A stretch of DNA of 64,000 nt. It comes from Solwaraspora sp. WMMD406 (GTDB lineage: Bacteria > Actinomycetota > Actinomycetes > Mycobacteriales > Micromonosporaceae). Shown piece by piece: positions 13,975 to 34,567 of this stretch. The position numbers were made by a program, and so were the translations under genes. The notes beneath the pieces are model-generated. The model was not told where the DNA came from. It was given only the letters and a program-made list of their open reading frames with translations, and ran no database searches. The stretch lies in assembly GCF_029626025.1 (NCBI RefSeq), contig NZ_JARUBF010000001.1:5054001-5118000 (forward strand), given 5' to 3'. Each line of letters starts with the position of its first letter. The stretch's first letter is position 1.

Positions 13975-15342
13975 GTGCGACGCAGTGCCCTACTCATCGG
14001 CTCTCAGACGTACGGCCTCAGCGGCGTCGGCAACGACGTGGACACCATGGCGGACCTGCTCGACCGACGGGGATTCACGGTGACCCGTCGCGAGTGCGCG
14101 CAGGCCACGCGGGCCGAGATCCTCGACGCGTACGAGCGGTTGATCCGCGACACCCGCGCGGACGACGCCGTCGTGCTCTACTACAGCGGGCACGGCGGCC
14201 TCGCGGTGGCCCCGCCCGACCTCGCCCGTGCGAGTCGGACCTCGGGCGCGACCCGGAGCGCCGGGGTGGGACGGGGCGCGCCGCCGAAGCTGCAGTTCAT
14301 CGTGCCGACTGACTACGCCGAATCGACCGAATCCGACTTCCGGGGCATCACTGGCGCGGAGCTCTCGGTGCTGCTCGTCCGGCTGGCGAACGTGACCAAC
14401 AACATCACCGTCGTCGTCGACGCCTGCCACGCCGCGCACGTGTCGCGCGACGACGAACTGGTAGTCAAGGCACTGCGCGGCCGGACGTACATCGACATCG
14501 AAGAACACCTGAGCCGCCTGCGACGCCAGGGCCTGGACACGGCGGTACGGGACGTGCTCGGCAACCAACGCGCCGTACGGGTGGTGGCCTGCGGACGCGA
14601 CCAGTCGGCGTACGAGCACACCAACGCCGCCAGCCGGCGTACCGGAGTTTTCACCGAGGCCCTGGCACGGACGCTGACCGAGACCGGGGAGCAGCCGGCG
14701 ACCTGGGCCGGCCTACTTTCCCGGGTACGCGAGCGGGTCTGGGACGCCGTGCCGTGGCAGCGACCCGAGGCCGAAGGCCCGGCCCACCGGCTGCTCTTCC
14801 AGACTGTCGCCGACCAGCCATCGCCGGTCGAGGACCGGTCCCCGCTGGGGGCTGCGGTCACCGTGGAATGGGGCCGCGTCCACGACGGCCGACCCGCGCC
14901 GCTGCCGGCGGCGGGGGCGACGCTGGCCGACGACGACCACGTGTACGTGCGCGTGCGCAACACCGGCCACGCCACCGTGCACGTGTCGGTCCTCGCGTTC
15001 GACGCGCAGTCGCGGATCTCCGTGGTCACCTCGCTCGACCCGTCAGGTGTCCCGGTCGGTCCGGCCGAGGAACACCTCGTCGGCCGTGACGAGCTGGACG
15101 GACGGCTGGTCGGGTTCCGACTTGCCCGGCTCCCCCGGCTCCCCCGGCTCCCCCGACCGTCCGGCGTCGATGACGGCGACACCCACCGCGACGCCTCCCC
15201 CGAAGCGGCGATGGTCGTCCTGGTCGCCTCGGCCCCGGCCACCCCGGTGAAGGCATACCGGGAGCTTGGCGCAGGTCACCACGGGTCGGTCCGGCACGAC
15301 GTACACCGGATCTCGTTCCGCTGGGCACCGGTCCGTCAGTAA
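13975..15342 (+). CDS. Caspase-like (peptidase C14) protein with C-terminal Ig-like domain
   Basis: A 455-residue protein. Residues 1-250 form a caspase fold: RRSALLIGSQTYG start, YYSGHGG with catalytic His73, and VVVDACHAAH with catalytic Cys151, so the dyad is intact. Residues about 280-455 resemble a DUF4384-type beta domain (LADDDHVYVRVRNTGHATVHV), often fused to bacterial caspases. The GTG at 13975 is chosen because GGAGG lies 6 nt upstream and the fold begins there. An LPRLPRLPR repeat near residue 395 comes from a CCCCCGGCT repeat. It is the first of five collinear genes ending with a second caspase-fold protease (CHAT). The substrate is unknown; a partner encoded in the operon is a plausible target. 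Confidence 0.85.
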   Translation: MRRSALLIGSQTYGLSGVGNDVDTMADLLDRRGFTVTRRECAQATRAEILDAYERLIRDTRADDAVVLYYSGHGGLAVAPPDLARASRTSGATRSAGVGRGAPPKLQFIVPTDYAESTESDFRGITGAELSVLLVRLANVTNNITVVVDACHAAHVSRDDELVVKALRGRTYIDIEEHLSRLRRQGLDTAVRDVLGNQRAVRVVACGRDQSAYEHTNAASRRTGVFTEALARTLTETGEQPATWAGLLSRVRERVWDAVPWQRPEAEGPAHRLLFQTVADQPSPVEDRSPLGAAVTVEWGRVHDGRPAPLPAAGATLADDDHVYVRVRNTGHATVHVSVLAFDAQSRISVVTSLDPSGVPVGPAEEHLVGRDELDGRLVGFRLARLPRLPRLPRPSGVDDGDTHRDASPEAAMVVLVASAPATPVKAYRELGAGHHGSVRHDVHRISFRWAPVRQ

Positions 15343-15425
15343 CCCACATGAGCGCGACAACCGAGGTGTTCGGCGCGGCGGACGCGACCGACGCGACCCG
15401 TGACCCGGATGGAGGATGAGCAGCT

Positions 15426-16988
15426 GTGTCGATCAAGGACTTGTTACTCGGGCAGAAAGACGACACCGTGTACGCCCGCGCGGTGCCGCAGCGGGTCGAG
15501 CTGACCGAGACGTACCGGGTCAGGCAGGACATCTCCAACAATCGGTCGGTTGAGCAGGACGGCGACGGTGCCGGCCGCCTCGAGATCATCGTGCCGTACG
15601 ACGGGCAGCGGTACTTCACCCAGGAGGCCTCCAGCGATGTCGCGCATGCGCTGCCGTCGGGTCCCGGGCCGGACAGCCGGGCCATGATCGGTCATCTTCT
15701 GTTGACTGACCACCACAAGGCGACCCACCTGCCCGCCGAGGTCCACCACCACACCTCGGCCGCTGTCCTCCCGCTCACCGTGCCGCTGACCGACGCGGGT
15801 GCTCCGATCAACCTGACCCTAGACCGCCAGACGTGCGAGATCCGGCACGACTACCAGCTCCAGAACCCGCTGGTCTACCCGGTGGAGTTCACCGTCAACG
15901 TCCACGATCTCGACAGCCTGGAAGACGAACTGGAGGACGCCGCCAGAGTCGCCGACGACCTCGATCCGGAGACGGTACGGGAGAAAGCCTGGGATCGGAT
16001 CAAGGGGAAGTGGTACACCAATCCGCAGCAGATCATCAGCAGGTTCGACCGAAAGGCCAGCTTCACCAACGAGTTGTGGCTGACGTTCGCCCTCCGGATC
16101 GTGCTTCCCGTCGAGCCGCGCCCCCGCCAGCTGTCTCCCGAGATCACGAGCATGTCCATCGACTGGCCGACGCTCACCTCGCTGCGCAGCACCAGGCTCT
16201 CCGTCAAGAATCTCGAGTCGCCGGCGAGTGAGGACCCACTCCGGAAGGTGGTGCGCTACAACCCGGTCGAGCGCCGGCTGGAATGGGACGACGTTCCGGT
16301 GCGCTACCTGGAACCGGAGGAGTCCGGCCACGACGGCACCGTTCAGATGTTCCACAGCGACATCGCCGTGCTCTACGTCGGACATCCGGGTGACCTGTTG
16401 AAGGACGACGTGTTCGAAGTCGACGCGGAGGTCGAGATCCCGGGCTACCTGATGTCCGGGGTGCGGGCCAGGTTGTACGACGCGACCGGACACCCACACG
16501 CGCTGCGGCCGGAGCTGTCGACGAAGCTGGCGATCACGGCGAAGGTGTATCTGGGCGACGTCTTCGCAGGGCGGGCGTTCTCCCCGTACCAGCAGTTCGT
16601 CTTCGACGACATCATCCCGGAGGAAATCCGGATCACGGATATCGAAACCGTGCTACGCAACGCCCGGTTCACGGTCAAGAAACTGCCGGAGGAACCGCAG
16701 AACCCGGCCGCCCCGAGGTGGCTGCTGCTGGCCCGACGCAGCCAAGGACCGGACGACCTCGAACTGCGGATTCTGATCGAGGGCAAACGGACACAGCTTC
16801 TGCGTCAGCAGAAGATGGGCAACACAGTGGTCGAAGGCGCCAAGGAGAGTGGCCGGATCACCGTCTCCATGCTCGGCACGTTGCACCGCGACCACAAGGA
16901 GATCGCCCGCGTGATGAACACCGTGCAGCAGGAAATTCGGGAGCGGTTCGTCTACCACCAGTTGTCGAGAAGGAAAGCAGCCGAGTGA
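15426..16988 (+). CDS. Caspase-operon protein 2, unknown family
   Basis: A 520-residue soluble protein that I do not recognise. It is rich in predicted beta strands. An acidic helical stretch (about 155-185, LEDELEDAARVADDLDPE) and a basic C-terminal helical region (about 455-520) are visible. The segment ERRLEWDDVP followed by GYLMSGVRARLY (around residues 280-355) resembles YREIRWKQV followed by LLSGVTGVGVY in the next gene product, suggesting a shared domain. The GTG start has GGAGGATGAGCAGCT upstream. The stop overlaps the next ATG as TGATG, so the two are translated together. The gap to the caspase gene is 83 bp. A role as substrate, sensor or scaffold for the proteases is inference. Confidence 0.7.
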   Translation: MSIKDLLLGQKDDTVYARAVPQRVELTETYRVRQDISNNRSVEQDGDGAGRLEIIVPYDGQRYFTQEASSDVAHALPSGPGPDSRAMIGHLLLTDHHKATHLPAEVHHHTSAAVLPLTVPLTDAGAPINLTLDRQTCEIRHDYQLQNPLVYPVEFTVNVHDLDSLEDELEDAARVADDLDPETVREKAWDRIKGKWYTNPQQIISRFDRKASFTNELWLTFALRIVLPVEPRPRQLSPEITSMSIDWPTLTSLRSTRLSVKNLESPASEDPLRKVVRYNPVERRLEWDDVPVRYLEPEESGHDGTVQMFHSDIAVLYVGHPGDLLKDDVFEVDAEVEIPGYLMSGVRARLYDATGHPHALRPELSTKLAITAKVYLGDVFAGRAFSPYQQFVFDDIIPEEIRITDIETVLRNARFTVKKLPEEPQNPAAPRWLLLARRSQGPDDLELRILIEGKRTQLLRQQKMGNTVVEGAKESGRITVSMLGTLHRDHKEIARVMNTVQQEIRERFVYHQLSRRKAAE

Positions 16989-19159
16989 TGAACGAGGAAG
17001 TGGTTGGCCGCGCGCCTCGGGCGCGCTGCTACAAGTGCGGACACGACAAGATCGCCTCGCTGTGCCACCATTGCCAACGTCCGATGTGCCGCAAGCACAG
17101 CCCGATGGTGTTCCGGCCGGAGAAATCCCAGGGCGGCACGTCCGGTGGCGGCAGGGCGAAACCGGCCAAACCGATCAGTGCGGAGTTCGCCGGCTTCGGC
17201 CTCGACAGCGCCACAGCGGGCGTCTATCACTGCGACGACCACGATCACGTCGTCAATGGCATCCCGTACCGCTGGATCGCGCTCGGGGCGGCTGCCGCGG
17301 CGCTCGGCACCCTCCTGCTGGCCGTACACCTCGCGACCGGGCTGATCCTGATGCTCGCCGGCCTGGTGACGGCCGGCGGCGCGCTGCTCGTGCACTACCT
17401 GCGGGCCCAGAACGCGACGCGCCCCCCGCTGCCGATCGTGCCTCAGCTGGGCTCTGTCGAGCTCGTCGAACGCCTCAGCGGGTACGTCCGCCTGGACGAC
17501 GCCGGCTACGCCAGCACAGTGGACTCGCTAGCCGGGACGATGACGGTCACCATGTCGACCAACAACGCCTTCGCCGGGATCCAGGCGTACCGCAAACGGT
17601 TCACGCTTCCCCCGTCCGAGCCGGTGCCGTTCTCCTGCGGCTACCTGATGTTCAAGGGAGACGTCGGGCTCGCTTTCCGTCCCGGGCAGACCTCGGTCCT
17701 GCCCGCCGGGACCGGCATCGCACTCGGCGGCGATTCCGCCGACGACAGTCCGCTGCTCCGACCGGCAGCACAGCGGCCACACGACGAGCCGACCTCCGTC
17801 GTCGACTACGAGATCCTGGACAGCCGCACCCCGGGCGGTATCCCCCTGTGGATCGTGCCGTCCCTGGTCCCCACGTCCGATCGCCGTACGCTCGAAATCG
17901 ACCTGCACTGGAATCCGCTCGGGGAGGAGCCGGACAACCTCACGCTGTCGGTGTTCGACCTGATCCAGCTCGAAGTGCCGGCGAGCTGGGGTCACCTGGA
18001 GAACTCCGCACCGGGCCGAGCCGAGGTCAGCCTCCGCGACGACGGGTATCGGGAAATCCGGTGGAAGCAGGTCAAGCCGAGCGCCGCCGCCGGTACCAGC
18101 CGTAGTCTGCCCCTGACGCTACGATTCGAAAATCGCATCACCGAGATGCCCGAAACGGCCGTCGACAGCGACGCCGGGCCTGCCCGGACCGGGGACGACA
18201 GCCCACGGACCAGGCTCACCGTGTCCGGCAAACTCGAGGCGACGTTCGACAAGCTCCTCTCCGGCGTCACCGGCGTCGGTGTCTACCTGCCCGGCGGCGG
18301 AGCCGGACACCGGCTGAAGGCCACGACGCAGACCCGGGTGGCCGTCGCGCTCGACGCCAGTCTCCGCTCGATCCGTTATCAGGAACAGCGGGCGATCCCG
18401 GACGACAAGGCATCCGATCACCCCCGGGCGGACGAGTTCCACGGTGTCGTCCCCGACCACAGCGTGGTGGCGGAACTGACCAACGCCATCAGCTACGACG
18501 ACTACTACGTCAAGAGCGTCGTCGAGCACCTGCCGTATCTCGACGACGCGCGATCCGGGGTGAACCGCGTCTGGGACATTTCCGGCCGGCGGTACATCGG
18601 ACTGTTTCCCATCGACTTCGACATCAACCTGCGCGGCGAGGAGGTCGGTGCCTCGTTCGGAAGCATCGGCAAGACGACCGCCACGGTGACGGTCAAGGGT
18701 ACCCACGCGATGGGCGTCCCGGTCGGGATACGGCCGTCGATCGAGCCGGCCGACGACAGCACCGCGCCGGATACCTCCGGCGACGAGCTGCTCATCCACA
18801 TCGAGAACACCTGGGAAAGCCTGCGCGACCGGGTCACCCGGTTGCTCGCCGCCCGCGCCGCTGGCGCCGCCGACCCCCGCGCGCTGCCGTCGGCGGAGAC
18901 GACCGTCGCACCGGACGACGTGATCGACGGGCAGACCTGGCCGGACGACACCATCCGGGTCGAGGCCACCGTCGGGCCGGAGTACGGGTCGGACGTCCCG
19001 TTCGCAGCGGACGACCCGAGCCAACGGATCGCCGAACTGCGTCGGCAGCGCGGCGTCGCCGGTGAGGCGGTGGTCTCGGGACGCATCTCGGAAGAGACCT
19101 ATCGATCGGTCGTCGCGCAGATCGACGCCGAGCTAGCCGGATTGGAGTGCGAACGATGA
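16988..19159 (+). CDS. Caspase-operon protein 3: zinc-finger membrane protein
   Basis: About 723 residues. The N-terminus has a B-box-like zinc cluster (CYKCGHDK, then LCHHCQRPMCRKHS), and a further CDDHDH lies before two membrane helices (IALGAAAAALGTLLLAVHL and LILMLAGLVTAGGALLV, about residues 98-137). The rest is a large beta-rich region sharing the W-x-x-V then L-x-SGV pattern with the preceding protein. The last 40 residues (GRISEETYRSVVAQIDAELAGLE) form a short helical tail like SHOCT-type tails. Both termini should be cytoplasmic. The ATG overlaps the previous stop. CHHCxxPxCRxH recurs in the next protein. The family is unknown; it would anchor the system to the membrane. Confidence 0.7.
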   Translation: MNEEVVGRAPRARCYKCGHDKIASLCHHCQRPMCRKHSPMVFRPEKSQGGTSGGGRAKPAKPISAEFAGFGLDSATAGVYHCDDHDHVVNGIPYRWIALGAAAAALGTLLLAVHLATGLILMLAGLVTAGGALLVHYLRAQNATRPPLPIVPQLGSVELVERLSGYVRLDDAGYASTVDSLAGTMTVTMSTNNAFAGIQAYRKRFTLPPSEPVPFSCGYLMFKGDVGLAFRPGQTSVLPAGTGIALGGDSADDSPLLRPAAQRPHDEPTSVVDYEILDSRTPGGIPLWIVPSLVPTSDRRTLEIDLHWNPLGEEPDNLTLSVFDLIQLEVPASWGHLENSAPGRAEVSLRDDGYREIRWKQVKPSAAAGTSRSLPLTLRFENRITEMPETAVDSDAGPARTGDDSPRTRLTVSGKLEATFDKLLSGVTGVGVYLPGGGAGHRLKATTQTRVAVALDASLRSIRYQEQRAIPDDKASDHPRADEFHGVVPDHSVVAELTNAISYDDYYVKSVVEHLPYLDDARSGVNRVWDISGRRYIGLFPIDFDINLRGEEVGASFGSIGKTTATVTVKGTHAMGVPVGIRPSIEPADDSTAPDTSGDELLIHIENTWESLRDRVTRLLAARAAGAADPRALPSAETTVAPDDVIDGQTWPDDTIRVEATVGPEYGSDVPFAADDPSQRIAELRRQRGVAGEAVVSGRISEETYRSVVAQIDAELAGLECER

Positions 19160-19554
19160 TCGTCACCTGCGGGGGCGGCGGCGAGCCCCTGGAAGACAAG
19201 CAGATCCTGGTGTGCCACCACTGCGGGACGCCGGTCTGCCGGGCCCACGGTCGGATCATCGCCCCCGACCATGCCTTCGCCGACGCTGACGCTGATTCGG
19301 CGGCCCCAGATGGCGTCGATTCCCCGGACCCCGATTCCGATACGCCGAATCCGGTGCCCCACCCGGTGCCGCTTCCCGCGCGGCCGACGACCGCACCCTC
19401 GGCCCGGGGCACCGCCGTGAGCGCGCCGCCCGCTGTGCACTGCGAGAAGTGCGCCAAACGGTTTCACCCGAACGAGATCCGCAGGGAACGGGCGGCCAAC
19501 GTGAAGGAACAGCTGAAGAGGTTCAGCGGGGAACGATCGGCGGGCAGGCCTTGA
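19156..19554 (+). CDS. Caspase-operon protein 4: small double zinc-ribbon protein
   Basis: 132 residues. The N-terminal LVCHHCGTPVCRAHGR repeats the CHHCxxPxCRxH motif of the preceding membrane protein. A central Asp/Pro-rich linker (DADADS, PDPDSDTPNP) leads to a second metal motif CEKCAKRFHP. It lacks membrane segments. The ATG at 19156 overlaps the previous stop as ATGA and its own stop overlaps the next start as TTGA, so it is embedded in a tightly coupled operon. It may bridge the membrane protein and the CHAT protease by zinc-finger pairing; this is inference. Confidence 0.7.
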   Translation: MIVTCGGGGEPLEDKQILVCHHCGTPVCRAHGRIIAPDHAFADADADSAAPDGVDSPDPDSDTPNPVPHPVPLPARPTTAPSARGTAVSAPPAVHCEKCAKRFHPNEIRRERAANVKEQLKRFSGERSAGRP

Positions 19555-20885
19555 TAGCGGTAGCCGTCGTACCGGATGAACTGACCGTCGACCGACGGAC
19601 GTCGCTATCGGTCGTGCTCAGAAACACGGGCCGGGGACCGTGCACCAACGTCGTGTTCAAGCTCCGGATGCCGGCCGGTGTCGTGCTGATGGCCGGCTCC
19701 GACCGGGTCGAGGTCCCGGTGATCCCGCCCGGTCACGCGCACACGCACGAGATCGCGGTGCAGGCGCGGCGGCCGGGCACGTTCCCGCTGACCAGCACCA
19801 ACTTCTCCTACCGCAACGGGTTCGACGTACCGGTCCGGGTGACCGACTTCCGCGCGGACCTGGTGGCGAGGTCCGCGCCGGCGCCCGTGCTGATCCCGCA
19901 GCCCACCGGTCGGCTCCGGGTGTGGTGCGACAACCCCGAGCTCGACCTGGACGCCTGGGACGAGCTGACCATCATGATGAGCAACGACACCGGCGTCGCG
20001 CTGCACGACGTCACCGTGGCGCTGCGGGGGCCGGTCGTCAGCGACGACCGGCGGCGCGGGGTCGCCGTACTCAAGGAGGGCGTGACGGCGCGGTTCACCC
20101 TGCCGGTACGGGCGACCGAGCGCGGCCGACACGTGCCGGTGGTGGTCACCACCCGGTACGGCCACCTGGACCCGTACGGCACCATCCGGACCGTCACACA
20201 GGAGAACGTCGTCGACGTGGCGGTACGGTCGGCCGCGTCGAGTCAGCCGACTGCACCGGTCACCCAGCCGGCCGCGCAACCGGCCCCGCAACCGGCCGCC
20301 GTCGAGCAGACCATCCTCTACCTGGCGGCCAGCCCGCAGGACCTGCCCCGGCTGCGCTCGGACCTGGAGATGCGCAAGGTCCGGGAACGGCTCCGGCTCG
20401 GCAAACAGCAGCACCGATTCCGAATCGACGATTGCACGGCCACGCGGTTCGACGACCTCAGCCAAGCGCTAAAGGACTACGAGCCGCAGGTCGTCCACTT
20501 CTCGGGGCACGGCGACAGGGAAGGATACCTGTACCTGGAGAACGATCTGGGCGATGGGGACTTGATCTCCCCGGAGGGGTTGGCGGAGCTGTTCCGGCTG
20601 CACACGCCGACGCTGCGCTGCGTGATAGTGAACGCGTGTCACTCGGTGCGGCTGGCCGAGGCCGTGTCCCAACACATCGACTACGTGATCGGGATGCGGT
20701 CCGAGATCCTGGACGAGGCGTCGATAGGATTCAGCACGGGCTTCTACGAAGGGCTCTTCGCCGGCTGGACCGTGCCGAAGGCCTTCGCCAATGGCTGCGC
20801 CCACATCCAAGCGCGCCGGGCCTTGGAGGGGCAGCACCGTACCCCGCTGCTCTACTCACGGGGGGCGGAGCCGCAGAGCTGCTGA
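19551..20885 (+). CDS. CHAT-domain protease with N-terminal Ig-like domains
   Basis: About 444 residues. Residues 1-105 and 115-225 look like two Ig/CARDB-like beta domains (LSVVLRNTGRGPCTNVVFKLRMP; ELTIMMSNDTGVALHDVTVAL). A Pro/Ala/Gln linker follows. The C-terminal CHAT domain (about 250-440) has ILYLAASP, catalytic His320 in VVHFSGHGD and Cys363 in VIVNACHS. CHAT domains are caspase-fold proteases, known for example from gRAMP-associated Csx29. The TTG start at 19551 overlaps the preceding stop (TTGA); no better start lies nearby. It is the last gene of the five-gene unit, so the operon encodes two caspase-fold proteases. Confidence 0.82.
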   Translation: MIAVAVVPDELTVDRRTSLSVVLRNTGRGPCTNVVFKLRMPAGVVLMAGSDRVEVPVIPPGHAHTHEIAVQARRPGTFPLTSTNFSYRNGFDVPVRVTDFRADLVARSAPAPVLIPQPTGRLRVWCDNPELDLDAWDELTIMMSNDTGVALHDVTVALRGPVVSDDRRRGVAVLKEGVTARFTLPVRATERGRHVPVVVTTRYGHLDPYGTIRTVTQENVVDVAVRSAASSQPTAPVTQPAAQPAPQPAAVEQTILYLAASPQDLPRLRSDLEMRKVRERLRLGKQQHRFRIDDCTATRFDDLSQALKDYEPQVVHFSGHGDREGYLYLENDLGDGDLISPEGLAELFRLHTPTLRCVIVNACHSVRLAEAVSQHIDYVIGMRSEILDEASIGFSTGFYEGLFAGWTVPKAFANGCAHIQARRALEGQHRTPLLYSRGAEPQSC

Positions 20886-24749: not shown

Positions 24750-25007
24750 ATGACGAGCGAAGCTCTGGGGCAGTTCAACATTCATGAGGCCAAGACGAAC
24801 CTGTCACGAATCATCGAGCGGGTGGAGCACGGCGAGGAGATCATCATCAGCCGCGCCGGTACTCCTGTAGCGAAGGTCATCCCACTGCACCGCGAGGTCA
24901 TCCGGAAAGGCCGCGGCTCGTTGAAAAACCTTCTGGTCGTCGCTGACGACTGGGACTCGGCAGAGGTCAACGAGGAGATCGCTCGGGACTTCGGGCTGAA
25001 TACGTGA
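24750..25007 (+). CDS. Phd/YefM-type antitoxin
   Basis: An 85-residue antitoxin. FNIHEAKTNLSRIIERVEHGEEIIISRAG is the Phd/YefM N-terminal DNA-binding signature, followed by TPVAKVIPL and an acidic C-terminus (WDSAEVNEEIARDFGL) that would wrap the toxin. AAGGGGG lies 6 nt before the ATG. Its stop overlaps the toxin start, giving coupled translation. It neutralises the VapC-type toxin and autorepresses the operon, as known for the family. Confidence 0.92.
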   Translation: MTSEALGQFNIHEAKTNLSRIIERVEHGEEIIISRAGTPVAKVIPLHREVIRKGRGSLKNLLVVADDWDSAEVNEEIARDFGLNT

Positions 25008-25378
25008 TGCTGCTCCTCGACACACACGTTGTCATCTGGTGGTTCACCGACGACCCCACCCTTGCCGACGACATCAAAGACCAACTGGACCGCGACCCAG
25101 GCGTGCATCTCAGCCCGATCAGTCTCTGGGAGATAGGGATAAAACAGGCCACCGGCAAGCTCAAGGGCCCGGATGACCTGGTGGAACGCATCAGGCGGAG
25201 TGGTTTCAAGGAGTTGCCGATCACCGCCGACCATGCGATCGTCGCGGCACGCCTTCCCATGATCCACCGAGACCCCTTCGACCGGATGCTCATCGCGCAG
25301 GCCCAGCACGAAGGGTCAACCATCGTCACCCGTGACGCGGAGATCCGCAAGTACGAAGTGAGCATCCTACCCGTCTGA
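25007..25378 (+). CDS. VapC-type PIN-domain toxin
   Basis: A 123-residue PIN-domain ribonuclease. LLLDTHVVIWW carries the first catalytic Asp (residue 5), SLWEIGIKQATGKL the conserved Glu, and HRDPFDRMLIAQA with VTRDAEIRKY the remaining acidic residues. All expected acidic positions are present, so the toxin looks active. The start is ATG 25007 (or GTG 25004), overlapping the antitoxin stop. The last codon lies only 13 bp before the first CRISPR repeat, so this TA pair borders the trailing end of the array. Confidence 0.92.
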   Translation: MLLLDTHVVIWWFTDDPTLADDIKDQLDRDPGVHLSPISLWEIGIKQATGKLKGPDDLVERIRRSGFKELPITADHAIVAARLPMIHRDPFDRMLIAQAQHEGSTIVTRDAEIRKYEVSILPV

Positions 25379-25391
25379 ACAGTTGCCTTCC

Positions 25392-27609
25392 GTCGCAATG
25401 GAGACCGGCCCTCGCGGGCCGGTGACGGCGTCGGGCGGACGGCGAGGCGTCGATCGCCAGCCCTTTGTCGCAATGGAGACTGGCCCTCGCGGGTCGGTGA
25501 AGGACCGCAGCCGCGATCAGCTCGCCGAGCACGTCCTCGGCCCGTCGCAATGGAGACCGGCTCTCGCGGGTCGGTTAAGGTCGAGGCCTACGCCGGCTGA
25601 CCGGTCCCAAACGCACAGTCGCAATGGAGACCGACCCTCGCGGGCCGGTGATGGTGCGCCTGATCCGCGCCCGGCTCGGGCAGGGGTGTGCCGTCGCAAT
25701 GGAGACCGACCCTCGCGGGCCGGTGATGGCACTGTGTGGCAGCCCGGTCCCGGTGGCAGATCACCCGGTCGCAATGGAGACCGACCCTCGCGGGCCGGTG
25801 ATGGGGGTCGTGCTCGCGGCCCACCGCGCCGCACCAGCGGACGTCGCAATGGAGACCGACCCTCGCGGGCCGGTGATGGCACGGCCGTTGGCGTCCGCCA
25901 GCAGGGCACGCAGCGTCGCAATGGAGACCGACCCTCGCGGGCCGGTGATGGCTGGTCGGCTCGGTGGCGAAGCGGTTCGGTATTCGGGAGTCGCAATGGA
26001 GACCGACCCTCGCGGGCCGGTGATGGGGCTGCCCGCGATCCTCGGCCAGCCAGTTCGGCTTGTGGTCGCAATGGAGACCGACCCTCGCGGGCCGGTGATG
26101 GGCACCTTGCCGCACTACGCGCCGCTGCGGTCGCCACCCGTCGCAATGGAGACCGACCCTCGCGGGCCGGTGATGGGCCAGCCGCCGGTTCTCGCTCACA
26201 GCGCCTCCCGTCACAGTCGCAATGAAGACCGACCCTCGCGGGCCGGTGATGGCCATCAGACGTTCCGGCAGACGTACGCCACGCGGCCGTCGCAATGGAG
26301 ACCGACCCTCGCGGGCCGGTGATGGTGGAAGGCTGAGGCCCGCAAGTGGGAGACCAGAGCGTCGCAATGGAGACCGACCCTCGCGGGCCGGTGATGGCCG
26401 CCAACTCGCGCCAGGAATCAGGATCGAGGTCACACCATGTCGCAATGGAGACCGACCCTCGCGGGCCGGTGATGGTGGACCATTTCCCGGTCGGTGTAGT
26501 CCGTGCCCGCGTAGTGTCGCAATGGAGACCGACCCTCGCGGGCCGGTGATGGCGGCGAGACGAAACCGCGCGGGGAGTTCTCCCGGAATAAGTCGCAATG
26601 GAGACCGACCCTCGCGGGCCGGTGATGGATGTTTGGCTTCTATCCAGAGTGGGGCGACTTCTACATGGCGTCGCAATGGAGACCGACCCTCGCGGGCCGG
26701 TGATGGGGGCCGGGCAGTACTCGAAAGCTGTCTATGAGGCGCAGTCGCAATGGAGACCGACCCTCGCGGGCCGGTGATGGAGATCGTGGAGCCCTCGGAT
26801 GAGTGAGCCTGGAGCGTCGCAATGGAGACCGACCCTCGCGGGCCGGTGATGGTCCGGGACCACTTCGGGCTGGGTGCCTCGTGACCGAGTCGGTCGCAAT
26901 GGAGACCGACCCTCGCGGGCCGGTGATGGGAGAAAGTCGCCAAGCAACGCACTGTCGCTGACTCCCTCGTCGCAATGGAGACCGACCCTCGCGGGCCGGT
27001 GATGGCACTGAGGCCCGCACCCTGCCAGGGGTACGGGCCTCAGCGTCGCAATGGAGACCGACCCTCGCGGGCCGGTGATGGCTCGACCTTACGATCTGGG
27101 ACCTGTTCCCACCCAGGGGTGTCGCAATGGAGACCGACCCTCGCGGGCCGGTGATGGCTCGACCTTACGATCTGGGACCTGTTCCCACCCAGGGGTGTCG
27201 CAATGGAGACCGACCCTCGCGGGCCGGTGATGGCTTCGGGCACCCCTGGTTCCGGGTCGACCCGAGTGCCGAGTCGCAATGGAGACCGACCCTCGCGGGC
27301 CGGTGATGGCTGACCGACGCGCAGCGCACCCTCAGCATCGACCAGGCGTCGCAATGGAGACCGACCCTCGCGGGCCGGTGATGGCATGGGGTGGACAGGG
27401 TGGACGTGTCCACCCTACCGGTCGCAATGGAGACCGACCCTCGCGGGCCGGTGATGGGCCTTTGTCTCCAGCTTGCTCGCGCCGCGACGCCGGTCGGGTC
27501 GCAATGGAGACCGACCCTCGCGGGCCGGTGATGGGCCCGGTCGGTACGGTCCTCGGCGATCAGCCAGCCGTAGTCGCAATGGAGACCGACCCTCGCGGGC
27601 CGGTGATGG
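25392..27609 (-). CRISPR. CRISPR array, 30 repeats and 29 spacers, type I-G
   Basis: Thirty 37-bp repeats start on the plus strand with GTCGCAATGGAG and end with CGGTGATGG. Spacers are 35-41 bp. The repeat can form ACCGaCCC-TCGC-GGGcCGGT. Transcription is judged to be on the minus strand for four reasons: the cas operon is on that strand; the three degenerate repeats (25392, 25467, 25544) lie at the far end; the leader with a promoter is at 27.6 kb; and on that strand the repeat ends ATTGCGAC, like the ATTGAAAC 5' handles of other type I systems. The spacers at 27082-27120 and 27158-27196 are identical. One repeat (26216) has a single A substitution. Confidence 0.97.
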
Positions 27610-27888: not shown

Positions 27889-28893
27889 TCAGGGTTTTGT
27901 GGGTGTCGGACCGGTGATGGTGACCGGGATCGGGGCGAGCACACCAGCTGATTTGCGGCCCTCGACGGGTTGACGAGCGGCGGCGGCAACGGCGAAGACG
28001 CCGAGCGGCGGCCACCTGGCCGGGTTGACGGTGACGGCGTTGGGCACGGCGTTCGGGACACCGTCCCGGCGGCGGTCCGGGCGCAGCTCGCGGTGTTCGA
28101 GCAGGGCGGTGACGGCGTGCCTGTCCAGGGATTGCCGCCACAGTGGCCACAGCATGACCGGCTGACGTCGGCCGGCCACCTGATGCCAGCCGGTCGCCGC
28201 CACGGTGCTGCCGTCGCCGGTCAACCGCAGCATCGGCAGCGCCATGATGGCCAGCCAGGTGGCACCGGGCACGCCGGCTTCGACGGACTTGCCGGACGGG
28301 TGGTCGGCCGCGCCGCGTACCACCCGGTGGTCGAGGTATTCGCCGGTGTAGCCGTCGACCCGCCGCCAGCCGGCGAACGCCTGTCGGATCAGCGTCGCCG
28401 GGTCCTTGCGTACCTCGTCGAGGGGTTTGGCGAAAAACGAACGCAGGCTCTGCTGACCGGCCGGCGCGGTGAACGGGGTGAGCGCGGCCCGGCCTTTGGC
28501 GTCGGCGGCGAGGTCGGTGACGAGTGCGGCCAGCCACCGTACGGCGGCCGGGTCGCCGCTGGTCAACCTGTCGGCCGCGGCTCGGAACTCGTCGCGGGCG
28601 ACCCGCATCGGGTCAGGCGCGGTGCCGACCTTCGCAGCGGGCAGCGTCGCCGGTGCGGCGGGGATCACCCCGTCGGGCGGAACGGTGGCGACGATGTCGA
28701 TCACTGTGGATACAAGGTCGTCGAGGGAGGTCAGCCGGGCGGTGTGCAGTCGGGCGACGGCGGTCTGCTCGTCGAACGACAGCGCGGCGGCCGGATCGTG
28801 GTGGTCGGCCAGGAGCCGCAGGGTGCCCAGCGCCGCGAGGAACCCGAGCGGGTCCCGCCCGTCCAGGGCCGGCAGCTCGATCGGGTCGCTCAC
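27889..28893 (-). CDS. Type I-G CRISPR large-subunit-like / Cas3-extension family protein
   Basis: A 334-residue protein, last gene of the cas operon. It starts IELPALDGRDPLGFLAALGTLRLL, the N-terminal signature of Csb3/Csx17-like and Cas3-extension proteins of type I-U/I-G systems. WLAIMALPMLRLTGDG and ILWPLW-like strands (VMLWPLWRQSL) are also typical. It probably serves as the Cascade large subunit or a Cas3 partner; which of the named families it belongs to cannot be settled by eye. The GTG start overlaps the stop that cas3 would have without its frameshift (GTGA). The 279-bp leader and array follow directly. Confidence 0.7.
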   Translation of the reverse strand: MSDPIELPALDGRDPLGFLAALGTLRLLADHHDPAAALSFDEQTAVARLHTARLTSLDDLVSTVIDIVATVPPDGVIPAAPATLPAAKVGTAPDPMRVARDEFRAAADRLTSGDPAAVRWLAALVTDLAADAKGRAALTPFTAPAGQQSLRSFFAKPLDEVRKDPATLIRQAFAGWRRVDGYTGEYLDHRVVRGAADHPSGKSVEAGVPGATWLAIMALPMLRLTGDGSTVAATGWHQVAGRRQPVMLWPLWRQSLDRHAVTALLEHRELRPDRRRDGVPNAVPNAVTVNPARWPPLGVFAVAAAARQPVEGRKSAGVLAPIPVTITGPTPTKP

Positions 28894-31800
28894 GGGTCGG
28901 TCCCTTCGTCGTCACCGGCGGGTGTTTCCTCGTCGCGGGCGGACGCCCAGATGTCGGCCAGCCGTACGACGGTTTCAGCAGCGCCAGACCCCACCGGCCG
29001 TACGCGTCGTTGAGCTGCGCGAACCGGACCGGAGCCGACCAGTCGACGGTGTCGGCCGAGTCGAACATTGGCAGCAACCCGGGCACGGCGACCTTGACCG
29101 ACCGGTCGTCGACGACCGGTGGCAGCAGCGGTCGGTTGCGGCCGTGATGGCTGGCGACCAGGTGGACGACCAGTTCCGGGTCGAGGTCGCCGGGGTGCTC
29201 GGCGAGTCGGGCGGCGACGATCCGTGCCGACAGTGCTTCGTGCCGCATCCCCTTGGGGTAGCCGGCGGCGTCCCGGGCCCGGCGCGCTTCGGCGAAGTTG
29301 GCCGGGTCGATGCCAGACTTGGCCAGCGGCTGCAGGGCGAGTTCGGCGAGCTCCGGGCGGCCGGCGTGCAGCATCGTCTGGAAGCGGGGGTCGCGTTTGC
29401 CGTCGTCGTGCCAGCGGGCGGCGGTTTCGACGCTGGCGACCAGCGGCGCGGGCAGGCCGAGGTTGCGGGCCATTTCGGCGGCGCGGGCGGCGACCGCCCG
29501 TTGATGGTCGTCGAGGTTGATGCGCCGGCCGGGGTACGCGCTGGCGGAGCTGCCCGCTTCCGAGTCGTCCTCGGCCTGCCGGTAACTGGGACCCTGGCCG
29601 GCCGAGCCCCGCGCCGTGGTGAGCAGCACCGGGAACGGCGGCTGCCAGGTCCGGCCGGTCTGGGCGTCCAAAACCGTGGCGGTACGGGTGACCAGCGGCT
29701 TGGCCTCGATCATCGGTTTCAGGGTGTCGAGCAGCGGATGGCGGGGCGGCAGCGCGGTGGCGAGCGCGCGAAGGAGGTCGCGGTAGCCGGCCGCGTCGGT
29801 CGGTTCCTGCTCACCGGCTGAGTCTGCGGCCGGGTCGGCGAGCAGCGCGTCGAGCGCCGCGTCGACATCGGGGCCTGGTGGTGCCAGCGGGTCGGCCAGG
29901 TAGGCGACGAGCGGGCGCAGCTGGGTGCCGATCCGCAGCAGCGGCCGGCCTCGGCGCTTGGCGAGGTCGGCGACGTCGACGACTGGTTCCCGGCTTGCCG
30001 GGTGCCAGCCGAACCGGTCGCAGCCGCCGTACTCGACCGGCATGACGATGGTGTCGCCGGGCCGGATCCTGGACGCCCGGATCATCTCGCCGCCGCCCCG
30101 GCGCGGGTAGCGCAGCACCAGCGGGTCGGCCGTACCGCCGGGTGTCGGGTTTTGCTCGTCCGGGGTGACCGCGAGCGCGACATCGGCGGTCAGGTCGGCC
30201 GGGTCGGTGCCGGTCAGCAGGCGGCGGAGCGCGTGGATCGGCACCTCGATGGCTTCGTCGGCGACCGGCGGCACGATGTCGACCGTGGCCGGCCAGTGGT
30301 CGGTCTGCCCGGTGTCCAGTCCGGCTCGCCAGACGACGGTGACGGCGGGCGGTTCGGCGTCGAGGCCGTGCAGGAACGGGGCGACCGGCGGGTCCGGGTG
30401 CGGCGGCGGTGAGCTGCGGGTCCAGGCGTCCAGGATGGCCGGGTCGAGCAGCGGCACGTACCGCTCGATGGTGGTGACGGCCGCTGCCGGGGCCTGGGCG
30501 CGCAGGTCGCGCAGCGCGATCGGGGACACGTCGCGGACGTCGCCCTGGTGGGGATTGGCCGGGGTGGCCGGGGTGATCCGCCCGGCCAGCCACTGCCAGG
30601 TGGCGAGGCGGGCCGGCCCGTAGACCGGGTCGTCGGCGTCGACGGTGCTGTCGTGCACCAGGTACGCCGGGGCGGGTTCGTCGTGGTGGCCGAGCCGATT
30701 GAGCCGGCCGAGTCGCTGGATCAGCGCGGGCAGCGGCGCTGATTCGCTGATCAGCGCGTCGGCATCGATGTTGGCTCCCACCTCGATCGTCTGGGTCGCG
30801 ACGATCACGAACGGGCGAGGGTCGGAGCGGCCAGGGTCGGCCTTGATCCGCTGGTAGTGGCGTTTCAGCAGCAGATCCCGGTCGATCGGGCGGATCCGCC
30901 CGGTCAGCAGGACGGCGTCGGTGCCGACGGGCAGCCGGTCGAACACGCCGCGGGCGCGGGCGACCGTGTTGGCGACGACGGCCACCACGCCCTGGTCGGC
31001 CAGCCGTACGGCGAGGTCGGCCATCACCTGCGGCACCTCGGTGTCGGCTTTGCGCCGGTTGGTGTCGACGTGGACGAGGCGTAGTCGCTTGCCGGCACGC
31101 AACCGCTGTCCGGCCATCGGGTGATCGAGGTCGGCGGCGCTGATCGTGTGCACCGTCGGCGTACCAATGTCAGAGGCCGCCGTCGGCGTACCGATGTCGA
31201 AGGCCGCCGGCCGGTCGTCGTCGGCCGGGTTGGTCGCGGACATGGTGACCAGCGTCGGCCGTCGGGCGATCGGCCACCGGTCCAGGTCGAACGCGGCGCG
31301 GGCGGTGGTGTGGAACGCGGTGGCCAGGTGGGCTTCGTCGACGACGATCAGACTGTCCGTGCCGACGAGGGCGGCGTCGATCGGGCGGGCGTACTCGCTG
31401 ACGCCGTAGCCGCGCATCAGCAGCCGGCTGCCGACCTGGTCGATGGTGCCGGTGATGATCGCCCGCCGGTCGGGGCGTTCCAGCCAGATGCGGTCCCAGG
31501 TGACGCCGCCGCGCATCCGGGCGACGGTCAGCACGTCACCGGGGTCGCCCACGGCGCGCAGCCGGTCGGCGACCTCGCGGCACACCGGCCCGGCGGCGGT
31601 GCCGGTCAACGCCGCCTGGATGGCGGTGGCGTGTTCGTCGGCTTCGTCGACGACGAGACGCCGGTCGACGACGAAAAACGTCCGCCGGGGTGCGAGGTCG
31701 GGGCGCAGCGCGGCGACGAACACGGCGACGTCGAGCACGGTCGTCTTGCCGAGTCCGGTCGGTACGTCGATGACGTCGGGCCAGCGCCCGTCGGCGAGGA

Positions 31801-31954
31801 TCCGGTCGAGCAGGGCCTGCTGCCAGGGGAACGGCTCGCGTCCGGCGTGGGCCTCGGCGACGAACGCGGCGAAGTCGGCGGCGGTCAGCGCCGCGACGGT
31901 GTCTTGTCGGCCGAGGCCGGCCGCTGGCCGGTCGGCATGTTCAGGGGCGGGCAA
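28613..31954 (-). CDS. cas3: Type I-G Cas3 helicase-nuclease, C-terminal frameshift
   Basis: The helicase part is complete: PFPWQQALLD (Q motif), Walker A VPTGLGKT (about 64-71), DEAH in VVDEAHLATAF, SAT in VTMSATNPA, and QRLGRLNRLG (motif VI). The HD nuclease is at the C-terminus (RWHDDGKRD, GMRHEAL, ASHHGRNRP), as usual for type I-U/I-G. The TTG at 31954 has GGAGG 6 nt upstream and overlaps the csb2 end. After GRWGLALL the frame runs into about 120 Arg/Pro-rich codons to 28613. Adding one base at about 28975/28976 restores ETVVRLADIWASARDEETP and a stop at 28890-28892 overlapping the next start. Only the last 27-28 residues are affected, so activity may survive. Confidence 0.85.
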   Translation of the reverse strand: MPAPEHADRPAAGLGRQDTVAALTAADFAAFVAEAHAGREPFPWQQALLDRILADGRWPDVIDVPTGLGKTTVLDVAVFVAALRPDLAPRRTFFVVDRRLVVDEADEHATAIQAALTGTAAGPVCREVADRLRAVGDPGDVLTVARMRGGVTWDRIWLERPDRRAIITGTIDQVGSRLLMRGYGVSEYARPIDAALVGTDSLIVVDEAHLATAFHTTARAAFDLDRWPIARRPTLVTMSATNPADDDRPAAFDIGTPTAASDIGTPTVHTISAADLDHPMAGQRLRAGKRLRLVHVDTNRRKADTEVPQVMADLAVRLADQGVVAVVANTVARARGVFDRLPVGTDAVLLTGRIRPIDRDLLLKRHYQRIKADPGRSDPRPFVIVATQTIEVGANIDADALISESAPLPALIQRLGRLNRLGHHDEPAPAYLVHDSTVDADDPVYGPARLATWQWLAGRITPATPANPHQGDVRDVSPIALRDLRAQAPAAAVTTIERYVPLLDPAILDAWTRSSPPPHPDPPVAPFLHGLDAEPPAVTVVWRAGLDTGQTDHWPATVDIVPPVADEAIEVPIHALRRLLTGTDPADLTADVALAVTPDEQNPTPGGTADPLVLRYPRRGGGEMIRASRIRPGDTIVMPVEYGGCDRFGWHPASREPVVDVADLAKRRGRPLLRIGTQLRPLVAYLADPLAPPGPDVDAALDALLADPAADSAGEQEPTDAAGYRDLLRALATALPPRHPLLDTLKPMIEAKPLVTRTATVLDAQTGRTWQPPFPVLLTTARGSAGQGPSYRQAEDDSEAGSSASAYPGRRINLDDHQRAVAARAAEMARNLGLPAPLVASVETAARWHDDGKRDPRFQTMLHAGRPELAELALQPLAKSGIDPANFAEARRARDAAGYPKGMRHEALSARIVAARLAEHPGDLDPELVVHLVASHHGRNRPLLPPVVDDRSVKVAVPGLLPMFDSADTVDWSAPVRFAQLNDAYGRWGLALLKPSYGWPTSGRPPATRKHPPVTTKGPTRERPDRAAGPGRAGPARVPRGAGHPAAPGRPPRSGRRAVVRRADRRRPTAHRPADLPRRPCIHSDRHRRHRSARRGDPRRTGDAARCEGRHRA

Positions 31955-33383
31955 CGGGTACCTCCGGGACGAACACGCCGCAGCCCAGGTAGCGCAGGGC
32001 ACCGGCGATGACCGGGCCGCGTACCTGTTCGGCGAAACTGATCCGGCAGTGCACCAGCGGTCGGGACGGCCGCTGCCGGGGCAGGGTGCCGCGCCGGGGT
32101 GCGCTGATCGCGCCGCGCAGCACCGGGGCGTCGAGCACGGTCACCGACACCGGCCGGGGATAGCCGGCGGTGACGAGTCCGTCGGCGACGATGTCGGCGG
32201 CGTCGCGGCTGCGATTGGGAAAATGGTCCAGCATCATCGGGCTGGCGGTCACCCACCGTTGTACGCCGGACGGTGGTCCGGTCCACCGGTCGGCCCGCAC
32301 ACCCCACGTCGTCGGCGGCTCGGCCGGGTCGGCGAGTTGCACCGGGCCGAACTGGTTGCCGTTCAACGTCTGGATCGGGTCGTCGCCGGTCGGGCCGAAC
32401 AGTCCGGTCAGTACCGCCCGGCGGTCGGTGTCGGGCAGGTCGGTGGGCAGCGCGACGGCGACGCCCAGCAGGTGTCCGTCGGCGTGGCGGTGGCCGACGT
32501 CGAGCAGCGGCAGGTATGCCACGTGCGGCCGGCCGTCGGCGCCGTGGCCGCTGACCTGGGCCGGCAGCGGATCGGCCACCCGGTCCATCACGGTACGCCG
32601 CAGCAGGCCGGCGACCTGCAGGATCCGGTCGCCCCGGATCGGCACGTGTCCGCGTCGTACCGGCCAGACCAGCAGTGTCCGGTACGGGCCGGGCGCTTCC
32701 ACCGGTGGTGGCTCCGCCGGCTGCGGCAGGGTCTCGACGGTGTAGGCGATCGACCGGGCGGTTTCCCAGGCCCGCTGGCCGGTGTCGTACGCGGCGATCA
32801 GCTGGTCGGTGTAGCCGGGGTACGGCACCCGCGGCGCGATCGACCCCGGCGCGCCGATCCGGGTCGGCCGGTACGTCGTCCACCTCGGACGCGGCGGCGC
32901 CTCCTCGTCGTGCACGGTGATTTCGACGTTGCCGGTGGACCGGCCCAGGTACGGCACCCGCCGGGCCAGCTTGGTCAGCCGCCACAGCACGCCGTCGTCG
33001 GGCTCGGCGGTCGGCCAGACGAACGCGAACCGGTCGTCGGCGGGCAGGGCGCTGCTGCGGCTGCTCGACCGGTTGGTGCGGCCCGGCCAGAACGTGCTGC
33101 CCGAATGGGTTTCGGTCGCGTTGGTCACCACGAATCCGCTGCGGACGCTGGTGTGTATGTCGGTCGGGGCGACCGCCGCGACCAGCGGTGGACCGGCCTG
33201 TTCGAGCCAGCGCAGCGCCGCCAGGTCGGCGTCCTCGGGTGGGTTGCCGCTGCCGTGTTCGACGGCTGCGACCAGCGCGTTGAACAGGCGCGCCGGATGT
33301 GGTGGCCACTCCGGGTCGGCGGGGGTGGTCGCGGCCGCGTCGTAGCGGGCTTCCCTCAGCCGTACGGTGATGCTGAGCGCCAC
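31941..33383 (-). CDS. csb2: Type I-G Csb2 (Cas5-Cas6 fusion, GSU0054 family)
   Basis: A 480-residue RAMP protein. It opens VALSITVRLREARYDAA with PEWPPHPARLFNALVAA, the GSU0054/Csb2 signature. The Cas5-like half runs to about residue 240 and a Cas6-like half ends in a Gly-rich GALRYLGCGVFVPE loop. It would process the pre-crRNA and cap the 5' end in Cascade. The GTG at 33383 lies 6 bp after the csb1 stop. The Cas3 start overlaps its 3' end. One possible catalytic His lies in PLVHCRISF. Confidence 0.88.
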   Translation of the reverse strand: MALSITVRLREARYDAAATTPADPEWPPHPARLFNALVAAVEHGSGNPPEDADLAALRWLEQAGPPLVAAVAPTDIHTSVRSGFVVTNATETHSGSTFWPGRTNRSSSRSSALPADDRFAFVWPTAEPDDGVLWRLTKLARRVPYLGRSTGNVEITVHDEEAPPRPRWTTYRPTRIGAPGSIAPRVPYPGYTDQLIAAYDTGQRAWETARSIAYTVETLPQPAEPPPVEAPGPYRTLLVWPVRRGHVPIRGDRILQVAGLLRRTVMDRVADPLPAQVSGHGADGRPHVAYLPLLDVGHRHADGHLLGVAVALPTDLPDTDRRAVLTGLFGPTGDDPIQTLNGNQFGPVQLADPAEPPTTWGVRADRWTGPPSGVQRWVTASPMMLDHFPNRSRDAADIVADGLVTAGYPRPVSVTVLDAPVLRGAISAPRRGTLPRQRPSRPLVHCRISFAEQVRGPVIAGALRYLGCGVFVPEVPVARP

Positions 33384-33388
33384 CGGTC

Positions 33389-34567
33389 CTACGCCTCTTC
33401 CGCTGCGGACTGGGTGAGGGCGTGCCGGATCGCTTCGGCGAGCGAGATGATCGGGGTGATCGCGATGACGTCGTCGTCCATGCGGATGCCGGCGGCCGTC
33501 GCCCGGCCGCGCAGCTCCCGGAAGGTGTCGATCGCCTCGGCGGTCGACACGTCGATCGGGTCGAGTGTGCCGCCGTCGCCTTCGAAGGCGACGGTCTCCC
33601 GGTGGCGGGTCAGGTCGCAGCCGGAGCGGAGCCACAGCGAGGCCCGCCCGAACGCGAGCCGGTCGCCGACCAGGGCCAGGGCGGCGAGCGTCGCCCGGGC
33701 CGCCGTCGCGGCTTCGGCCGACGCGTCGCCGAACCGCAGCCGTTCCAGGCCAGCCAGGGAGATCCAGCCGTACCGGCGGATTTCCCGCACCGTCACCCCG
33801 CCGTGCACCGTGTTGGGCGCGATGTGTCCGTGCCCGATCTCGCTGAGCTTGCCGCCCTTGGCTTTCGTGCCCTCCGGCAGGTAACGCCAGTCGCGTTCGG
33901 CTTTGCCCTTGTCGTCGATGGCGCCGGTCAGGTTGACCGGGTCGACCTTGCCGGCCCGCCGGTCCCCGATCGACCAGTCGATGCCGAACATCGACGACGA
34001 GTAGACGCGCGGGAACTTCGGCCAGCGTCCCTTGCGGTGCGAATCCCAGGCCCCGAAGATCAACGAGTACGGTTCCCGGCGGTAGAGCGGCCGTACGTCG
34101 GTGGCCGAGGTCGCCCGCAACGCCTTACCGACCGGGCTACGGTCGAAGCGTTCGCCGTCCACGTCGCTGTCGCGTAGGTAGGCGTCGGCGTAGCGGTGCG
34201 GGAAGTCCAGCGACGTCAGCCGGACGCCTTCCTCTTTCATGGTCAGTTCGAAGATCGGCAGGTCGAGTCGGCCGCCGTCACGGGCTGCCAGCAGCGCCTC
34301 TTCGACCCGGTTGGCCTGCGAAGGCACCTGGTCGACGATGACGGTGTCGCGCAGCGTGTCGTCGATCAGTCGGCGTTCTGTCGCGTACGGCACGGGCTCG
34401 CGGCCTTCACGTCGGGCGGCGGCCTGCTCCGAGTCGGGAATCGGGAACGTCGGCGGCATGATCTTGCCGCCCGGCCCGCCCACCGGCTGATACACCCCGT
34501 TGAACACGATCCCCGCGTGCGAGCGGTCTTCACGAACCGCGTCGAGCAGGCGGTCGGCAAGCGACAT
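33389..34567 (-). CDS. csb1: Type I-G Csb1 (Cas7 backbone, GSU0053 family)
   Basis: A 392-residue Cas7-type RAMP protein that forms the crRNA-binding backbone. Signatures are VFNGVYQPVGGPGGKIMPPTFP, SQANRVEEAL, SLDFPHRYADAYLRDS and RVYSSSMFGIDWSIGDRRAGK. AGGAG lies 8 nt before ATG 34567, which is preferred over GTG 34576. It is the first gene of the operon csb1-csb2-cas3-large subunit. About 200 bp upstream is the IS110-family element, and no cas1, cas2 or cas4 follows on either side. Confidence 0.9.
   Translation of the reverse strand: MSLADRLLDAVREDRSHAGIVFNGVYQPVGGPGGKIMPPTFPIPDSEQAAARREGREPVPYATERRLIDDTLRDTVIVDQVPSQANRVEEALLAARDGGRLDLPIFELTMKEEGVRLTSLDFPHRYADAYLRDSDVDGERFDRSPVGKALRATSATDVRPLYRREPYSLIFGAWDSHRKGRWPKFPRVYSSSMFGIDWSIGDRRAGKVDPVNLTGAIDDKGKAERDWRYLPEGTKAKGGKLSEIGHGHIAPNTVHGGVTVREIRRYGWISLAGLERLRFGDASAEAATAARATLAALALVGDRLAFGRASLWLRSGCDLTRHRETVAFEGDGGTLDPIDVSTAEAIDTFRELRGRATAAGIRMDDDVIAITPIISLAEAIRHALTQSAAEEA

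Follow-up and report, generated by a model that had tools for sequence, protein, structure and literature searches.

The genes g2 to g5, located on a single strand in the 64,000-nucleotide stretch of Solwaraspora sp. WMMD406 DNA that was analysed (hereafter the window), form a compact cassette whose gene order is conserved at eight loci within the family Micromonosporaceae. The cassette encodes a CHAT protease (g5), two zinc-finger proteins, of which one has a predicted membrane hairpin (g3 and g4), and a soluble protein that is predicted to adopt a fold known from clathrin adaptors (g2). In the window it is preceded by a gene for a caspase-like protease (g1). We consider the chances evenly balanced that the products of the cassette assemble into a CHAT protease complex docked at the membrane, in which an adaptor-like subunit does the targeting and a caspase is optional, and which probably serves in conflict or regulated death.

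Proteases of the CHAT and caspase types hold a central place in the conflict and cell-death systems of bacteria, and most of the known ones are under the control of RNA-guided complexes, NTPases or EAD domains. The composition of the cassette suggests that here a membrane zinc-finger protein and an adaptor-like subunit exert the control and that the protease is a module that can be swapped; judged from sequence and structural models, the cassette would be a bacterial protease alarm of a novel design.

Gene organization

Positions 13975-20885 of the window contain five ORFs on a single strand, all of which were confirmed and show coding-like codon usage. These genes, and one possible additional small ORF, are the following:

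13975..15342, + strand: g1, stand-alone caspase-like protease of 455 aa (Peptidase_C14 in Pfam; GTG start with GGAGGA upstream)
15349..15420, + strand: possible small ORF between g1 and g2, 23 aa, MSATTEVFGAADATDATRDPDGG (an in-frame counterpart, of 28 aa and ending in DATRGPDGG, is present only in the congener G702, locus L044)
15426..16988, + strand: g2, soluble protein of 520 aa without a sequence family, a constant part of the cassette (GTG start; kept in 8 loci)
16988..19159, + strand: g3, zinc-finger membrane protein of 723 aa with a large C-terminal beta-rich part (kept in 8 loci)
19156..19554, + strand: g4, small zinc-finger protein of 132 aa with a finger similar to that of g3 (alignment; hhalign of g3 vs g4)
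19551..20885, + strand: g5, Ig-like/NEW3-type N-terminal region followed by a CHAT protease, 444 aa (TTG start; Pfam CHAT 1.2e-9, NPCBM_assoc 2.7e-5)

The original prediction, made from the sequence of the window, described four of the genes as coupled by overlaps of 1 or 4 bp, and these read exactly as claimed: g2/g3 share 1 bp (TGATG), g3/g4 4 bp (ATGA) and g4/g5 4 bp (TTGA). Between the upstream gene g1 and g2 there is a gap of 83 bp, in which a sequence scan revealed no consensus promoter or terminator, a weak argument at this high GC content. The small ORF in this gap, whose stop codon is located 6 nt ahead of the g2 start, is possibly a leader peptide, or just the RBS region.

The two proteases

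According to Pfam, g1 is a member of caspase family C14 (Peptidase_C14, 66.7 bits at a cut-off of 21.4, E 3.1e-18) and g5 is a CHAT protease (38.5 bits at a cut-off of 24, E 1.2e-9). The catalytic pairs that had been proposed for the two, His73/Cys151 and His320/Cys363, are correct, and both active sites are intact:

14191..14193, + strand: g1 catalytic His73 codon (GHG; from the sequence)
14425..14427, + strand: g1 catalytic Cys151 codon, in the DACHA motif (from the sequence)
within g1, + strand: C14 domain at residues ~2-256 (Pfam) and C-terminal beta domain at residues ~285-384, also present in larger caspases (C-terminal match to these)
20283..20870, + strand: g5 CHAT domain, residues ~245-440 (Pfam), of a different CHAT lineage in genome G713
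20508..20510, + strand: g5 catalytic His320 codon, invariant in 9/9 aligned rows
20637..20639, + strand: g5 catalytic Cys363 codon, invariant in 9/9 aligned rows

The DACHA motif of g1 resembles metacaspase-type sites, which cleave after Arg or Lys, and cleavage after these residues is predicted for g1 from that motif. The larger caspases, of 820-860 aa, were considered as members of the same system and ruled out: they are paralogues that adjoin large ATPase-like genes. At loci L086-L090 (G699, G498, G401, G476, G000) a ~1000-aa ATPase-like gene, a gene for a caspase of 820-860 aa and a ~75-aa gene recur together, with a ~340-aa gene nearby; from its sequence this unit appears to be a conserved caspase system of its own in Micromonosporaceae.

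The g5 of G713 (L045 13834-15123) is 51-62% identical to the other g5s over residues 1-228 and 28-31% identical to them in the CHAT domain, which groups with another CHAT clade in the tree and has retained the catalytic His and Cys. By its sequence it is a natural protease-domain swap, in which the Ig-like part was kept and a foreign CHAT domain acquired. The pattern displayed by g5 is that of a protease that can be exchanged on a putative constant delivery platform made up of g2-g4 and the Ig part.

Elsewhere, the CHAT-only relatives of g5 have short repeat-rich N-termini, and several of them adjoin small membrane proteins with similar repeats. At L051, L052 and L053 such CHAT-only genes are paired with ~100-aa membrane proteins that have a GNVYATQxG-like motif in common (identified by eye), and the pair is adjoined by vWA-, phosphatase- and kinase-like genes (named by eye). 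At L054 7878-10594 (G485) GDK-type repeats are found in the N-terminus of the CHAT protein (GDKINGDKIVGDKV) and in the C-terminus of the neighbouring DUF6232 membrane protein, which suggests homotypic docking of the two. On the basis of these sequences, the membrane-partnered CHAT protease seems to be a recurring theme in Micromonosporaceae.

A predicted adaptor-like fold in g2

The three middle products had been said to belong to no recognised family. This holds at the level of sequence families, as g2, g3 and g4 have no credible match in Pfam, NCBIfam or PADLOC; it does not hold for the structure of g2, which has a predicted mu-homology-domain (MHD), i.e. clathrin-adaptor-like, fold. The AlphaFold (AF2) model of g2, based on an alignment of 8 sequences, is of medium confidence (mean pLDDT 68, pTM 0.60) and contains two regions:

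15483..16550, + strand: g2 residues ~20-375, predicted MHD-like fold (AF2 model, VIA, Foldseek)
16587..16985, + strand: g2 residues ~388-520, C-terminal alpha+beta domain, possibly START/SRPBCC-like (weak; Foldseek 2d4r, 3tfz and PYL3, E 0.016-0.2)

Comparison of the model with known structures by VIA-align yielded Z-scores of 10-13, with MHDs making up 50 of the 50 entries listed, and Foldseek also returned MHD matches (E down to 8.6e-8, prob 1.00), which span the clathrin/COPI adaptors and the muniscins. As a whole the model superposes badly on MHDs (Foldseek rmsd around 9 A), and the arrangement of the two sub-domains in g2 is therefore not reliable. No sequence similarity to Adap_comp_sub or muHD was found in Pfam for the 8 g2 members at E<=10, and a PDB sequence search with the g2 and g3 profiles returned nothing credible. 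We regard an MHD fold for g2 as likely, on a model of medium confidence, and homology to MHDs as possible. Were the fold real, bacteria would possess a cargo-binding fold of the clathrin-adaptor type; we encountered no description of a bacterial MHD in the open-access literature searched. For the C-terminal 130 residues, weak Foldseek matches point to a possible START/SRPBCC-like domain. A distant kinship between g2 and g3 was rejected (hhalign probability 0.3%).

Zinc fingers of g3 and g4 and a predicted membrane hairpin in g3

The description of g3 as a zinc-finger membrane protein is borne out by a Cys/His-rich N-terminus and a predicted hairpin:

17027..17098, + strand: g3 N-terminal zinc-finger core with invariant C14, C17, C26, C29, C34 and H37 (g3 alignment)
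17267..17410, + strand: g3 predicted transmembrane hairpin, residues ~94-141 (hydropathy, with a hydrophobic stretch at 95-138; two AF2 helices)

Downstream of the finger core, H81, C82, H85 and H87 are also invariant in the alignment. Since the two hairpin ends face one side of the membrane and a cytosolic location is expected for the finger, the large beta-rich part of g3 is probably cytosolic as well. The AF2 model of g3 (pLDDT 38) was not used for fold assignment, and SHOCT-like helices seen by eye at the C-terminus were discarded for want of Pfam support. The small protein g4, for which Pfam returned weak zinc-finger model matches alone, was likewise rightly taken for a zinc-finger (zinc-ribbon) protein, and carries a CHHCxxPxCxxH finger in common with g3 (hhalign E 4e-6).

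Conservation of the cassette

In a search of 355 Micromonosporaceae genomes, g2 was found in 8, distributed over 5 genera; a ninth match, at 19 bits, is noise and was excluded. The order g2-g3-g4-g5 is identical at all eight loci, including those of Dactylosporangium fulvum, D. roseum and Symbioplanes lichenis, and all eight cassettes have 4-bp overlaps at both g3/g4 and g4/g5, while g2 and g3 overlap by 1-4 bp or are 7 bp apart. Searches outside the family, at class level (395 and 297 genomes) and at phylum level (246 genomes), detected no relatives of g2 or g3, and no relatives of g3 were found on plasmids; matches in G110, G719 and G077 (18-19 bits) were dismissed as noise. Within the window's genus only two of the members searched have the cassette. 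Its distribution is thus rare, patchy and of narrow taxonomic range, and we found no report of it in the open-access literature searched.

The original prediction treated the five genes as one operon. The gene-order search refutes a chance arrangement of g2-g5, which are conserved beyond the window (eight genomes), but g1-g5 do not constitute a conserved unit: the five-gene order is present in two genomes only, those of the window and of G702, and an adjacent caspase is missing at 6 of the 8 cassettes. No caspase is encoded in the at least 6 kb read upstream of the cassette in L003, L004, L005 and L047; in G476 a contig end lies directly upstream of the cassette, and in G713, with its sparse upstream gene calls, the absence of a caspase rests on a sequence comparison that covered the adjoining 1.5 kb.

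Values of dN/dS, calculated between the window and G702, are 0.33-0.62 for the five genes and 0.15-0.30 for three comparison genes, i.e. g1-g5 evolve fast under purifying selection; g1 itself is 81% identical (dN/dS 0.33). An empty-site comparison of the two loci showed that the upstream flanks differ and that a downstream pair of an HTH gene and a 91-aa gene is common to both. A YcaO gene is located directly upstream of the caspase in G702 (L044 12945-14258) and is absent upstream of that in the window.

Linkage between the short caspase and CHAT proteases

Full-length relatives of the short caspase g1 occur in 4 of 311 genomes (the window's, G702, G503 and G485), and the four caspases form one clade in the tree (100/98). 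In G485, which represents a third genus, the caspase gene precedes a 242-aa CHAT gene by 7 bp, in a locus without g2-g4, and this CHAT protein belongs to a different clade from g5. Either members of the caspase clade have therefore become linked to CHAT genes on two or more occasions, or one CHAT partner has been replaced by another. In G503 (an assembly that is 10% contaminated) the short caspase is solitary and an orphan g5 is found elsewhere. The co-occurrence of caspase and g5 has a Fisher p of about 2e-6, an exploratory value as the threshold was post hoc and the genome sets differ slightly. Re-pairing with a CHAT of another lineage, as read from the G485 sequence, supports a functional link between caspase and CHAT protease.

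Comparison with known systems

PADLOC identified no full described system; g1 and g5 match its generic caspase, CHAT and SAVED-CHAT models and, marginally, HEC-01B. The earlier observation that no gasdermin, NTPase or death/effector-associated domain is visible in the unit agrees with the Pfam, NCBIfam and PADLOC results. Craspase (type III-E gRAMP/Cas7-11 with TPR-CHAT/Csx29; PMC9729208, PMC10028731) resembles the cassette in that a CHAT protease is retained in an assembly of several subunits by which its substrate is delivered or controlled, an assembly that we infer for the cassette. The cassette has no TPR repeats or gRAMP/Cas7-11 and Craspase has no counterparts of g2-g4; the cassette instead has an Ig-like region and CHAT domain with membrane, zinc-finger and MHD-like partners. 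It is not a type III-E system, as the N-terminus of g5 is a NEW3-type Ig and not TPR, and no Cas7-11 was recognised among the neighbours. Bacterial gasdermin systems (a caspase-like protease and a gasdermin; PMC9612521) also have a caspase-fold protease beside a membrane protein, but g3 combines a zinc finger, a hairpin and a beta-rich part, and sequence profiles gave no Pfam gasdermin match in g2-g4; a gasdermin fold is still conceivable for g3, whose model has a pLDDT of 38. The likeness of g2 to the medium subunits of clathrin/COPI adaptors and to muniscins (AP mu1-4, delta-COP, FCHO, SGIP1) lies in the predicted fold of residues ~20-375; unlike these, g2 has no detectable sequence similarity or visible longin domain, is bacterial and is encoded beside a protease.

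Proposed mechanism and alternative explanations

We propose that the products of g2-g5 would form one membrane-docked protease complex. Herein g3 would anchor the complex at the inner membrane face, in the order zinc finger, hairpin, beta-rich cytosolic part, and g4, with the same finger, might bridge to g3 or compete with it. The MHD-like surface of g2 would recruit a target protein, and g5 would be the replaceable catalytic subunit, of which the Ig-like part docks on the complex and the CHAT domain cuts the recruited target. The caspase g1, added in the window's genus, could act as a second protease, an upstream activator or a backup of the CHAT protease. The complex would most likely serve in an accessory conflict or regulated-death response. 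A bolder formulation, which we put forward tentatively and lean somewhat against, is that a genuine cargo adaptor of the mu-homology type exists in bacteria and delivers targets to a membrane-bound, caspase-triggerable CHAT protease, unlike any described system.

The main rival to the favoured defence or regulated-death reading is the regulation of membrane proteins. The unit would then be a dedicated proteolytic regulator or quality control of membrane or envelope proteins (in development or stress), with the caspase as accessory regulator and no role in defence or suicide. Substrate delivery of this kind would suit an MHD-like cargo-binding fold combined with a membrane anchor, no nuclease, pore-former or NAD-consuming effector was recognised in the unit by Pfam, NCBIfam or PADLOC, and the other cassette loci have no consistent defence neighbours. 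Nevertheless, we regard it as rather unlikely, for the cassette is rare and patchy (8/355, with two genus members only among those searched) and CHAT exchange and raised dN/dS are more usual in conflict genes.

Whether g1 belongs to the system at all has to be considered too, since the 83-bp gap contrasts with the overlapping g2-g5, six other cassettes have no caspase and the flanking genes differ. That g1 is a chance neighbour of a system consisting of g2-g5 only is nonetheless improbable: it is kept in both congeners under purifying selection, a caspase of the same clade directly precedes a CHAT gene in another genus, and a g5 is likewise present in the fourth genome with a short caspase. 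Still less credence, to the point of being very improbable, is given to a variant of the EACC1-caspase membrane conflict systems with CHAT as the effector. These two-gene systems are actinobacterial and consist of a caspase gene and, 5' of it, an EACC1 gene whose product has a single TM helix (Kaur et al. 2020, PMC7159879), and the cassette is like them in being actinobacterial and in its caspase with a membrane partner; moreover, members of the g1 clade weakly match the EACC1-type caspase model (36-50 bits). These scores, 36.4 bits for g1, are far under the curated cut-off of 140 bits, Pfam and NCBIfam reveal no EACC1-like single-TM gene 5' of the caspase (the neighbour of g1 in the window has no match in either, and in G702 the position is taken by YcaO), and CHAT is a separate gene.

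Genomic neighbourhood

Further downstream, the window contains a CRISPR array in which a 37-bp repeat (GTCGCAATGGAGACCGACCCTCGCGGGCCGGTGATGG) occurs in ~30 copies, beside the type I-G genes Cas3g, Cas5/6g (Csb2) and Cas7g (Csb1), at 25392-27609 and 28613-34567; no adaptation genes were noticed adjoining the array. This CRISPR locus is separate from the cassette and is not of type III-E. Between an HTH gene and the array, at 24750-25378, lies a small two-gene unit that by eye resembles a Phd-type antitoxin and a PIN-type toxin.
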